Assembly (NCBI RefSeq): GCF_022370835.2
Contig: NZ_CP092365.1
Coordinates: 3,534,001 to 3,598,000, forward strand
DNA from: Mycolicibacillus parakoreensis
Lineage (GTDB): Bacteria; Actinomycetota; Actinomycetes; Mycobacteriales; Mycobacteriaceae
Reading direction: 5' to 3'
DNA length: 64,000 nt
Of the stretch, positions 3,061 to 37,412 are shown piece by piece (position 1 is the first letter of the stretch; the number at the start of each line of letters is the position of its first letter). The notes beneath the pieces were generated by a model that ran no database searches, was not told the origin of the DNA, and was given only the letters and a program-made list of their open reading frames with translations. The translations under genes and the position numbers were made by a program.

Positions 3061-5662
<2,602 letters not shown>

Positions 5663-35243: not shown

Positions 35244-35435
35244 ATGGACGCCTCAGAACAGCACCGGTTGCACCAGCTCGCGCACGACCTGCAGCGCTTC
35301 GCCGGCGAGGTGCACACCCTGGGTTACTCCCCGTCGATCGCCTGCGGCGCCGAAGGCCCGTTCCTGGAGCTCTCGGCGCGCATGCGCGCCCGCGCCGACG
35401 CGCTGGCCCGGATGGCCGCCGCGCGCAGCGCCTGA
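35244..35435 (+). CDS. Small helical hypothetical protein
   Basis: Encodes 63 residues, mostly alpha-helical (HRLHQLAHDLQRFAGEVHTLGY..LELSARMRARADALARMAAARS), with no signal or membrane segment. The ATG has GGAGG upstream. It precedes the DIP1984-family gene by 83 bases on the same strand. Family not recognised. Confidence 0.55.
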   Translation: MDASEQHRLHQLAHDLQRFAGEVHTLGYSPSIACGAEGPFLELSARMRARADALARMAAARSA

Positions 35436-35518
35436 CCCGTGGGCCCGGCGCTGGTATCGTGCGGTGATCGTCGATGCCCGGTGAGCCGGCCGCGAGGCCG
35501 CCGCGGAGAGGAACGGTC

Positions 35519-35989
35519 ATGAAGCTGGCGGAGGCACTTTCGTTGCGGGCCACCGTGACCCGACGTATCGAACAGCTGCGGACCCGGATCGTCCACAACG
35601 CCCGCTACCAGGAGGGGGAAGACCCCCCGGAGGACGCGGCGGCCCTGCTCGTCGACGCCGACGACGCGCTGCGCGAGTACGAGGAGCTCATCCGGCGCAT
35701 CAACCGCACCAACGCCGCCACCGTGATCGGCGCGCACGGCACGCTCACCGACGCGTTGGCGCGGCGCGATGCCCTGCGGCTGCGTCATCATGTGCTCAAA
35801 AGCGCCGCCGACGCAGCTGCCGGCACCGGTCAGCCCGGCTACACCCGCCAACTGCGCTCGGAGCTGAAGATGCTCGCGGCGCTACCGGTCGCCGAGTTGC
35901 GCTCCCGCGCCGACGTCGTCGCCCGGGAGTATCGCGAACTCGATGTGCGTATCCAACGCGCCAACTGGGAGGTCGATCTGCTGGAGTAG
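35519..35989 (+). CDS. DIP1984 family protein
   Basis: Encodes 156 residues, almost entirely helical (KLAEALSLRATVTRRIEQLRTRIVHNARYQEGEDPPEDAAALL..DALREYEELIRRINRTNAAT..LTDALARRDALRLRHHVLKSAAD..LDVRIQRANWEVDLLE). The start MKLAEALxxRAxxxxRIxxL and ExPxE turn are typical of the DIP1984 (formerly septicolysin) family, whose function is unknown. The ATG follows GGAGAGG. A probable Y RNA begins about 25 bases after the stop in the same orientation, which may hint at an RNA-linked role. Confidence 0.82.
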   Translation: MKLAEALSLRATVTRRIEQLRTRIVHNARYQEGEDPPEDAAALLVDADDALREYEELIRRINRTNAATVIGAHGTLTDALARRDALRLRHHVLKSAADAAAGTGQPGYTRQLRSELKMLAALPVAELRSRADVVAREYRELDVRIQRANWEVDLLE

Positions 35990-36013
35990 CCGGCGCGCGC
36001 CACCCGCCGGGGT

Positions 36014-36165
36014 GGTGCGCGCAGTCCGAGGAGAGTCTGTAGGTAGCCGTCGCGGAGGCGTGCGCAAGCCCCGACCGGCGGGCGAAGTCCGGTCTCCACT
36101 GGCGCACGACGGGCAGTGCAACGGGTTCGATTCCCGCTTCACCGAGCAGCCCCGCATCGCGCACC
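36014..36165 (+). ncRNA. Probable Y RNA, YrlA-like, with tRNA-mimic domain
   Basis: A ~150-base region closed by a perfect 8-bp helix: GGTGCGCG (36014-36021) with CGCGCACC (36158-36165). Inside is a hairpin GACCGG..CCGGTC (36073-36094) whose loop side holds GGCGAAG (36081-36087), matching the GNCGAA(N)G motif reported for Ro60-binding bacterial Y RNAs. Further on, CGGGTTCGATTCCCG (36122-36136) is a canonical tRNA T-arm. No acceptor stem pairs with the flank of this T-arm, so it is not a normal tRNA. YrlA RNAs combine exactly these parts. No Ro60 gene is in the window. The exact ends are inferred from pairing. Confidence 0.6.
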
Positions 36166-36275
36166 GGTGATCGCGCACGACGCACACCGCATCACCACCG
36201 CGCAGATCCGCGACGGCGAGGGCGGGCACGGGGCACCTCTTCTCGGTCGCGCCGGTGTGCTCGGGCGTGCGGGGG

Positions 36276-37412
36276 TCAGCCCGCGGCTCGTCGGGTGGCT
36301 TGCCGCTGCCTCGCGGCCGCGACGAGGGCGTCGTTGCGGCGCTCGATCTCCTCCTGGGTGGCCGGCGCGAGGAGCTCACCGCCCGGTGCGGCCATCTCCT
36401 GGGTGCTGATCGCACGCGGTCGTTGAGCGCGGTCGTAGTGCGCCAAGGCCCCCTCGACGTCGCCGCGATGATCGCGTAACGCTTCGGCGAGGAGCCAGGC
36501 ACCGGTGAGGGCCAGGCTGGTGCCGCGGCCGGTCAGGTTGGAGGTGCAGTGCGCGGCGTCCCCGACCAGCACCACGCGACCGCGGTGCCAGCGGGTCATC
36601 CGGATCTGGCTGACCGAGTCGAAGTAGAACTCCGGGTCCTCGATCGCCGCGTTGACCAACTCGGGGATGCGCCATTCGGTGCGCCCGGCGAAGGCGTCGG
36701 CGAGGATCTGCTTCTGGGCCCCCAGATCGTGGTAGTCGTAGTCGATCCAGGGTGAGCGAAACATGAAGGCCGCCAACGCGGTGTCGTTATAGGCGGCGAT
36801 GCCGGCCATGTGGCCGGGAAAGTTGTACATCGGGTTGACGCGGTCGGTCGGGGTGTCGCCGGGCAGTCGGGCGAGCGCGATGTACATGCCGAGGAAATGT
36901 AGGAACTGCCGTTCGTCGCCGAACGTGAGCCGCCGGATCGCCGAGTGCATCCCGTCGGCGCCGACGACCAGGTCGTAGCGGCCGGTGGCCCCGGAGGCGA
37001 AGCGGACGTCGACCCCGGTGCCGTCGTCACGCAGGTCGGAGACCGACTCGCCGAACCGGAGGTCCACGGCGGGCCCGAGGTGGTCGTGGAGGATGGTGGT
37101 GAGGTCTTCGCGGGGGATCTCGATGTCGTCGGGGGAGTCGTTGATGTAGTCCCAGGACGGTTCGGCCACGACGGCTCCGTCGCTGTCGATGAATTGGACA
37201 CGTTCGGTCATGTCGATGCGGCGCTCACGGATCGGCCCGAGTACACCCATCTTGTCGGCGACCCCGATCGCCTCGCCCCGGATGTCGATGGGCGAGCCGT
37301 TGGCGCGCAGATGATGGGCCCGTTCGACGAGGGTGACGTCGTGGCCGGTGGCGCGCAGCGTGATCGCGGCACTCAGGCCCGCCACCCCCGCACCGGAGAT
37401 GAGAATGCGCAT
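36276..37412 (-). CDS. FAD-dependent monooxygenase (PHBH-like)
   Basis: Encodes 378 residues. The FAD-binding start ILISGAGVAGLSAAITLRATGHDVTLVERA, GADGMHSAIR (the DG motif binding FAD and NADPH) and VVLVGDAAHC (ribityl-binding GD) are the three hallmarks of class A flavin monooxygenases. It hydroxylates an aromatic or polyketide-like substrate, which could be a drug; the substrate is unknown. The tail is Ala/Arg-rich. It is divergent from a TetR gene, with a perfect palindrome between them. Confidence 0.9.
   Translation of the reverse strand: MRILISGAGVAGLSAAITLRATGHDVTLVERAHHLRANGSPIDIRGEAIGVADKMGVLGPIRERRIDMTERVQFIDSDGAVVAEPSWDYINDSPDDIEIPREDLTTILHDHLGPAVDLRFGESVSDLRDDGTGVDVRFASGATGRYDLVVGADGMHSAIRRLTFGDERQFLHFLGMYIALARLPGDTPTDRVNPMYNFPGHMAGIAAYNDTALAAFMFRSPWIDYDYHDLGAQKQILADAFAGRTEWRIPELVNAAIEDPEFYFDSVSQIRMTRWHRGRVVLVGDAAHCTSNLTGRGTSLALTGAWLLAEALRDHRGDVEGALAHYDRAQRPRAISTQEMAAPGGELLAPATQEEIERRNDALVAAARQRQATRRAAG

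Follow-up and report, generated by a model that had tools for sequence, protein, structure and literature searches.

The DIP1984/DUF6847 gene of Mycolicibacillus parakoreensis is followed by a structured RNA, some 200 nt long, that belongs to a widespread class of noncoding RNAs (ncRNAs) that are genetically bound to this gene family. Sequence comparison establishes that the RNA class exists, how it folds and that it goes with DIP1984; on balance, we also favor a reading in which the RNA and the protein act together as a ribonucleoprotein (RNP) on tRNA. With its two pseudoknots and tRNA-like arm, the RNA occurs together with DIP1984 in cellular genomes of several phyla, on plasmids and on viral contigs, and is unmatched in Rfam among the members tested. 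DUF6847, often labelled 'septicolysin', thus gains a candidate RNA partner, concrete enough to give the domain a testable role.

The DIP1984 gene and the RNA element downstream

The window analyzed here is a 64,000-nt stretch of contig NZ_CP092365.1, part of a 3.94 Mb genome (2 contigs, completeness 100). A preliminary description of this DNA had proposed a YrlA-like Y RNA at 36014-36165, directly after a DIP1984-family gene. The gene assignment was borne out: the upstream gene product scores 180.2 bits against NF038048 (cut-off 70) and 169.2 bits against PF20935 (cut-off 27), and in Pfam and NCBIfam it matched DUF6847/DIP1984 alone, with no match to nuclease, recombinase or transposase models. 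A single protein search returned 4459 related proteins, and the closest protein in that search, which its source names Mycobacterium koreense, is 90% identical. The model of DIP1984 predicts a protein of four helices (pLDDT 92), and its relative in the PDB is 3KDQ (phmmer E 1.1e-26; Foldseek E 7.8e-10), the DIP1984 protein of Corynebacterium diphtheriae, which shares family and fold with the window protein and was deposited as a functionally unknown protein under an entry title that names no RNA partner. The fold search with this model gave no clear match beyond 3KDQ; its generic coiled-coil rows, including seryl- and valyl-tRNA synthetase, were discounted as evidence. Conserved Arg, Asn, Gln and Trp residues characterize the family.

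The boundaries of the RNA differ from those initially proposed, as the conserved element spans 36034-36235 and its closing helix P1 (36047-36056/36207-36216) runs past them. The features of the locus are as follows:

35519..35989, + strand: DIP1984/DUF6847 gene, the constant neighbor of the RNA (156 aa plus stop)
35993..36022, + strand: 13-bp local hairpin between gene and RNA, outside the conserved element (from folding)
36034..36235, + strand: whole conserved structured RNA, about 200 nt (span of the match to covariance model R1)
36042..36046, + strand: GGTAG, D-loop-like
36047..36056, + strand: closing helix P1, 5' strand, pairing with 36207-36216 (covariation)
36059..36065, + strand: helix P2, 5' strand, made up of C36059 and 36061-36065 with G36060 bulged (covariation)
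36068..36071, + strand: pseudoknot PK1, stem S1, 5' strand, pairing with 36080-36083 (75.3% of cells paired)
36073..36078, + strand: PK1, stem S2, 5' strand, pairing with 36089-36094 (92.4% of cells paired)
36080..36083, + strand: PK1, stem S1, 3' strand; GGCGAAG at 36081-36087 overlaps S1 and the pseudoknot loop
36089..36094, + strand: PK1, stem S2, 3' strand (covariation)
36104..36119, + strand: hairpin P4, 36104-36107 with 36116-36119 (94.5% paired)
36111..36114, + strand: P4 loop GGGC, pairing with the downstream GCCC to form pseudoknot PK2
36122..36136, + strand: tRNA-like T-arm CGGG-TTCGATT-CCCG, CGGGTTCGATTCCCG (T-stem, 88.0% of cells paired)
36149..36152, + strand: GCCC, PK2 partner of the P4 loop (covariation)
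36200..36205, + strand: helix P2, 3' strand (covariation)
36207..36216, + strand: closing helix P1, 3' strand, beyond the 3' end first proposed for the RNA (covariation)
36218..36233, + strand: conserved G-rich 3' tail, GAGGGCGGGCACGGGG (invariant or near-invariant columns)

The conserved architecture thus comprises GGTAG, P1, P2, the H-type pseudoknot PK1, P4 with its PK2 loop, the T-arm in many members, a linker and the G-rich tail. The GG of GGTAG is invariant and the TA nearly so in the 51-sequence alignment, although GGTA-like words doubled as an anchor for extracting the RNA sequences; likewise, the tail, with the consensus GAGGGYGGGnnnGGGG 3' of P1, supplied a pattern that doubled as an extraction anchor. 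The window RNA matches R1 with 175.2 bits (E 6.2e-57), and because the window stretch is itself among the 22 seeds of R1, the independent test lies in non-seed relatives. In a DNA search of 61 genomes with 35980-36180 as the query, three genomes of the same genus (G001, G008 and G010) showed 78-84% identity over query positions 62-200, each with DIP1984 directly upstream of the RNA region. Short matches in two further genomes, G039 (E 8.5e-4) and G047 (E 2.4e-4), were by eye different from the RNA and were rejected.

Free-energy folding of the RNA by itself did no better than shuffled sequence. For the stretch first delimited, 36014-36165, the fold of -59.8 kcal/mol (z +1.5) was equalled or exceeded in stability by 192 of 200 shuffles. 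The 8-bp helix that had been taken to close this stretch does have complementary arms, GGTGCGCG at 36014-36021 and CGCGCACC at 36158-36165, but it is not conserved: its 5' arm is absent from a close relative of the window locus, in Mycolicibacillus koreensis (L135), and in the window belongs to the 13-bp hairpin at 35993-36022. That hairpin is itself stable (-31.5 kcal/mol, z -3.7; none of 200 shuffles as stable) and is perhaps a processing hairpin. Strong hairpins between the DIP1984 stop codon and the RNA were also seen by eye in L083 (near 4465) and L242 (near 3130); in some lineages, such hairpins may perhaps be processing sites.

Covariation supports a conserved fold with two pseudoknots

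A regular expression located the element after the DIP1984 stop codon, mostly with a length of 180-217 nt, in 115 of 139 loci, a set that includes overlapping fetches of the same genomes. The 115 RNAs were reduced to 109 by length, to 69 by removing near-duplicates and to 57 by removing 12 divergent RNAs; 51 sequences entered alignment A4, from which 22 were picked as seed A5. In a structure-free MAFFT alignment of the 57 sequences, the top 14 covarying column pairs all fell within P1, P2, PK1 and the T-stem, and in every one of them standard pairs made up 86% or more. In the 22-sequence MAFFT alignment, 90.5% of cells pair, compared to 77.7% after shuffling and 32-47% in slid versions, and 29 of the 39 pairs of the structure with both pseudoknots are changed on both sides somewhere.

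Covariance model R1 was built from the nested helices alone, leaving out PK2 and stem S1 of PK1. Aligning 88 matches to it gave 87 distinct rows, nine of them weak matches (E >0.01), in which 91.0% of cells pair (61.9% shuffled, 38-43% slid) and 921 cells are doubly changed, as against 294 in the control; by construction, this alignment is biased towards the nested helices. Although both are absent from R1, PK2 is paired in 94.6% and PK1-S1 in 75.3% of cells, and all eight of their pairs (4/4 each) are changed on both sides. The PK2 variants by row include GGGC/GCCC (39), GGAC/GTCC (5), GAGC/GCTC (2) and GAAC/GTTC (2), among others. With eight low-scoring rows, which the 87-row count retains, removed to give an 80-row alignment, the top 26 covarying pairs were all within the structure.

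A helix in the linker between the T-arm and the 3' strand of P2 was sought among the best covarying pairs, and none was detected. As for a pairing of GGTAG with a downstream CTACC, the first three pairs are by eye constant, and the remaining ones are absent among the 70 best covarying column pairs. Frames open across the whole element occur in 18, 28 and 4 of the 109 extracted RNAs, by frame. The T-arm was found at 36122-36136 just as the preliminary description had it, and the T-loop pattern recurs in 65 of the 109 RNAs; it is absent in the other 44, so tRNA mimicry cannot be the sole function.

The RNA accompanies DIP1984 across genomes and plasmids

A five-member DIP1984 alignment searched against species genomes yielded 226 relatives, and we worked with the top 80. 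By their titles, these loci belong to actinobacteria, clostridia, bacilli, Chloroflexota, a cyanobacterium, alpha- and gammaproteobacteria, Chthonomonadales and a Desulfovibrio, a spread that covers several phyla. An R1 match lies beside DIP1984 in 79 of these best 80 loci (E <=4.6e-9). The next match in the 612,290 bases has E 0.011, and the 80th locus (L106) has a match in place at E 0.042. Ten of the 80 loci are R1 seeds, and setting aside another two (L123 and L132), whose contigs equal seed contigs in length, leaves 67 of 68 non-seed loci with the RNA beside DIP1984. The RNA is 3' of the gene in 78 of the 79 matched loci; it shares the gene's strand, and its start falls -2 to 88 nt after the stop codon of DIP1984 (78 loci, excluding L111 and L106). 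In L111 (Corynebacterium glaucum; 3741-3979), the RNA is 5' rather than 3' of DIP1984. Terminator-like hairpins 3' of the RNA were seen in 20 of 78 loci, as counted by our own script without a shuffled control.

Within the genus, DIP1984 is patchily spread, with PF20935 found in 28 of 248 genomes, and the RNA is present in 28 of these 28; nine of the 28 are seeds, and the set overlaps the best-80 loci. One carrier, G010 (locus L033), has a TAA stop inside the DIP1984 frame, with an intact-looking RNA beside it. R1 also matched (E <=0.001) in another 14 genus genomes, all of them lacking PF20935. By eye, the RNA has lost its 5' part or its T-arm in two of these, G424 (136.7 bits) and G503 (51.8 bits); these copies (L159 and L160) look decayed, and DIP1984 was not found in the 4.5 kb around them. 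In the other twelve, the RNA matches reach at most 33.6 bits and are mostly short pieces.

In a phylum-wide sample, DIP1984 was found in 12 of 296 genomes and the RNA in nine of the 12. Of the others, G289 has a partial RNA match interrupted by a contig end, G144 carries DIP1984 with no R1 match found, and G321 has a weak protein match (44 bits) with no RNA found by R1. Five weak RNA matches (18.6-25.7 bits) came from PF20935-negative genomes of this sample.

The association extends to plasmids. An RNA-first blastn search of 72,556 plasmid records with the window RNA matched seven, which are the seven best DIP1984 plasmid records, with the RNA 16-35 nt from the DIP1984 protein match. DIP1984 occurs on 369 plasmid records, 340 of them from Acinetobacter. 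The Acinetobacter plasmid form, sampled at three loci, was missed by R1 in two (L048 and L049) and barely matched in the third (L055, E 0.0012); by eye, it keeps P1, P2 and a CTACC or TTACC, and the T-arm and the G-rich tail are absent. The Psychrobacter and Enterococcus forms matched R1 at E 6e-6 and 9e-7, respectively.

Viral tRNA arrays, RtcB and other neighbors

Among nine viral loci found via the protein, seven have an RNA match at E <=1.6e-4, and the other two (L138 and L141) have DIP1984 with no R1 match found. A scan of viral contigs for the tail pattern produced 54 stretches with 30 R1 matches at E <=0.01. Among these, L242 was a newly found full-length RNA lying just behind a DIP1984 gene, and two known contigs were found again, those of L140 (as L201 and L226) and L143 (as L200); 26 short matches (E 1.4e-5 to 0.0083) lay around the pattern itself and were taken as a selection effect. 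A viral scan with ACTACCRYGTGCTGAT gave 35 stretches, in which no full-length RNA was found, and one 33-nt piece (E 0.0028). Blastn of the RNA against phage records gave no match; the DIP1984 protein was found in 4 phage records. Two loci carry more than one RNA copy: two tandem copies stand behind one DIP1984 gene in L140 (4534-5014), and two copies lie 0.5-1.3 kb downstream of DIP1984 in L136 (4990-5985).

On four viral contigs, the gene and the RNA sit inside tRNA arrays of 24 (L137), 13 (L139), 17 (L144) and 10 (L242) tRNAs within 4.1-8.5 kb, an arrangement that points to such arrays as a possible home for an additional type of RNA-protein module. The other viral loci have one tRNA (L140), two (L143) or none (L136, L138, L141 and L142). 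Around cellular loci, no tRNA clustering is evident in 612 kb, where 9 tRNA genes lie outside the RNA; we judge this number to be background, so the link to tRNA rests on the viral contigs. Searching five proteins against PHROGs gave one weak tail-fibre match, in L144 (E 6.5e-4).

RtcB, sought by tblastn with one Acinetobacter RtcB, lies near the gene and RNA in three lineages: immediately ahead of DIP1984 in a Ruminococcus MAG (L125), past the RNA in the actinobacterium G314 (seen as L008 and L154), and one gene before DIP1984 on an Acinetobacter plasmid (L055), together with RNase Z and RtcA. On that plasmid (NZ_CP098797.1, 1-4774), the order on one strand is RNase Z, RtcB, an unknown gene, DIP1984, a 260-nt gap with the weak RNA match, and RtcA; the 216-aa protein encoded between RtcB and DIP1984 has no Pfam match. 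Within the genus, RtcB is little commoner among DIP1984-positive genomes (11/28) than among negatives (7/28), which leaves RtcB unsupported there as a required partner of DIP1984, and a search of the M. parakoreensis genome did not find it. Neighbor clusters that recur consist of DIP1984, frames overlapping DIP1984, sets from genomes related to one another and, scattered over 10 loci, ATPases that by eye resemble those of ABC transporters, and no neighbor family around the loci indicates a pathway.

A proposed role on tRNA and its alternatives

The mechanism we propose would proceed in steps of decreasing certainty. Gene and RNA would share one transcript, and the RNA would be freed from the 3' UTR of the gene; DIP1984 would then bind the RNA as a dedicated RNP; and, least certain, the T-arm may imitate or hold the tRNA elbow. 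Such a particle could protect tRNA under nuclease attack, serve as a decoy or help repair it. Because the RNA sits among viral tRNA genes and RtcB is nearby in unrelated lineages, mimicry of the tRNA elbow in the service of guarding, decoying for or repairing tRNA seems to us, with low confidence, the most likely role. Taken further, DIP1984 and its RNA could form an undescribed tRNA-imitating RNP that guards or repairs the tRNA pool, a portable module of bacteria and plasmids that large phages carry with their tRNA arrays against tRNA-cutting defenses of the host; we offer this more specific version tentatively, as a possibility that may well prove wrong.

The alternative that survives best is a cis-acting element in the 3' UTR that governs how stable the DIP1984 mRNA is, or how it is processed or translated, and has no function in trans. 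The RNA begins at or just past the DIP1984 stop codon, and a scan of 35400-36320 in the window, confined to sites of the sigma-70 type, found nothing promoter-like, both as expected for such an element. However, for something that merely stabilizes an mRNA, a fold with two pseudoknots, a T-arm and a tail that hardly varies is elaborate, and this reading fits poorly with the placement of the RNA 5' of the gene in L111, its two copies 0.5-1.3 kb downstream in L136 and the two in tandem in L140. We regard it as unlikely, though deserving of serious consideration.

Less likely still is a toxin-antitoxin pair in which DIP1984, in keeping with its old label 'septicolysin', is a toxin neutralized by the RNA. 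The close pairing of gene and RNA, the patchy spread (28 of 248 genus genomes) and the presence on plasmids and viral contigs all suit such a pair. However, the RNA lies downstream and lacks the repeats that type III toxin-antitoxin systems have, its structure has been kept in different phyla, no recognizable RNA goes with DIP1984 in G144, and PADLOC, run on three proteins, returned no match; together, these points make the reading improbable.

A small mobile element, with the RNA marking its end or guiding its movement, would account for the occurrence on chromosomes, plasmids and viral contigs. In TnpB-type elements, too, a protein gene is directly followed by a structured RNA. Nevertheless, the DIP1984 protein has no nuclease, recombinase or transposase match in Pfam or NCBIfam, and we consider this explanation quite improbable. 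That the element is a decayed tRNA or tmRNA gene is barely credible, despite the T-arm and tRNA calls by ARAGORN inside two members (L118 and L129), given that the window element has no tRNA or tmRNA call and that its strong compensatory change implies selection on the present fold.

Relation to Y RNAs and other known RNAs

The preliminary interpretation was right in seeing a structured RNA with a tRNA-like T-arm tied to DIP1984; its identification as a YrlA-type Y RNA with a Ro60 partner encoded elsewhere did not withstand comparison, and we give it almost no weight. GNCGAA is the Ro60-binding motif of Y RNAs. The hairpin-loop word GGCGAAG, which had suggested this motif, is present at 36081-36087, but of the 109 extracted RNAs, 7 have GNCGAA in the equivalent 60 nt, a count that includes the same window DNA twice, and in the window the site overlaps the conserved pseudoknot PK1. 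The comparison with relatives suggested at the outset gave a divided result: the region 3' of DIP1984 holds a conserved element, and the Ro motif and the proposed 8-bp closing helix are not conserved. The covariance-model check also came out against YrlA, as RF02553 was absent among the matches in the window at 35900-36300 up to E 10 and the YrlA model had no match in the whole genome at E <=0.001. As regards a Ro60 partner acting in trans, the genome has no TROVE match at E <=0.001.

Among the other carriers, TROVE was found in 1 of 28 in the genus, leaving 27 of 28 without a match, and in 3 of 8 elsewhere. In the four TROVE genomes (G537, G109, G217 and G238), YrlA-model matches lie within about 1.3 kb of TROVE and none at DIP1984, with DIP1984 and the RNA on other contigs or megabases away; these YrlA matches are all below the Rfam cut-off (30-48 bits vs 69). 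Further sub-cut-off YrlA matches occur on other contigs in G217 and G238 (one each) and about 5 kb from TROVE in G537 (a second one), and 7 of 14 control genomes have sub-threshold matches too, so the separation seen in the four genomes is only supporting evidence. The lack of a model match, the absence of TROVE from this genome and from 27 of 28 genus carriers, and the lack of conservation of the motif led us to reject the YrlA/Ro60 reading.

There is nonetheless a resemblance in plan. The T-arm and the long helix recall the Y RNA layout as outlined in PMC8394870. Like YrlA with Ro60 (Rsr), the element is an ncRNA linked to a protein, and its long helix and tRNA-like part may correspond to those of YrlA: P1 closes the RNA, with the conserved tail continuing beyond it. 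In the tRNA-like part, the T-stem covaries, the T-loop pattern occurs in 65 of 109 RNAs and GGTAG is present; a D-stem is absent among the covarying pairs. The rtcBA operons of some bacteria include YrlA (PMC7790460 and PMC8394870), and the DIP1984 RNA likewise has RtcB nearby in three lineages. Unlike YrlA, it has DIP1984 as its constant neighbor, with TROVE mostly absent, and it is longer, at about 200 nt compared to the 90-150 nt given in PMC8394870, with two pseudoknots, a G-rich tail and no conserved Ro motif.

Other known RNAs fare no better. At the window element, no Rfam family reaches its cut-off, and neither Rfam nor ARAGORN calls a tRNA or tmRNA; at gathering scores, 21 further loci gave no Rfam match, and two relatives, searched to E 5, gave nothing more than weak matches attributable to chance. 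In one relative, a 15-nt piece of the T-arm matched the tmRNA model with 9.7 bits (cut-off 47). The tmRNA combines a tRNA-like part and pseudoknots with a small protein partner, SmpB, and the DIP1984 RNA resembles it in the first two and in having a small protein as its candidate partner, but its T-arm is internal and the window has no tmRNA call.

Burroughs and Aravind, reviewing RNA-repair systems in 2016, reportedly mention a novel tRNA-like molecule near RtcB. It is likewise a tRNA-like ncRNA, reportedly tied to SPFH/Band-7 proteins and not to DIP1984; it might be a related RNA or the same one. In the literature searched on Y RNAs, tRNA-like RNA and RtcB, septicolysin and bacterial ncRNA surveys, no description of the RNA was recognized. 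The element is outside every known RNA family or RNP tested, with the reservation that the Burroughs-Aravind molecule might be related to it; its newness is that of an RNA or RNP family and does not extend to protein-bound tRNA mimics in general.

Annotation of both RNA and protein may be affected. Inside the RNA element, ARAGORN calls a tRNA-Gly and a tRNA-Gln, at 4524-4610 of L118 and 4487-4562 of L129, respectively, so some members of the class may be mis-annotated as tRNAs. For the protein, given its candidate RNA partner, the toxin-like label 'septicolysin' may be misleading; by title, the literature that uses the word deals mostly with Acinetobacter and, in a few cases, with clostridia or yeasts.
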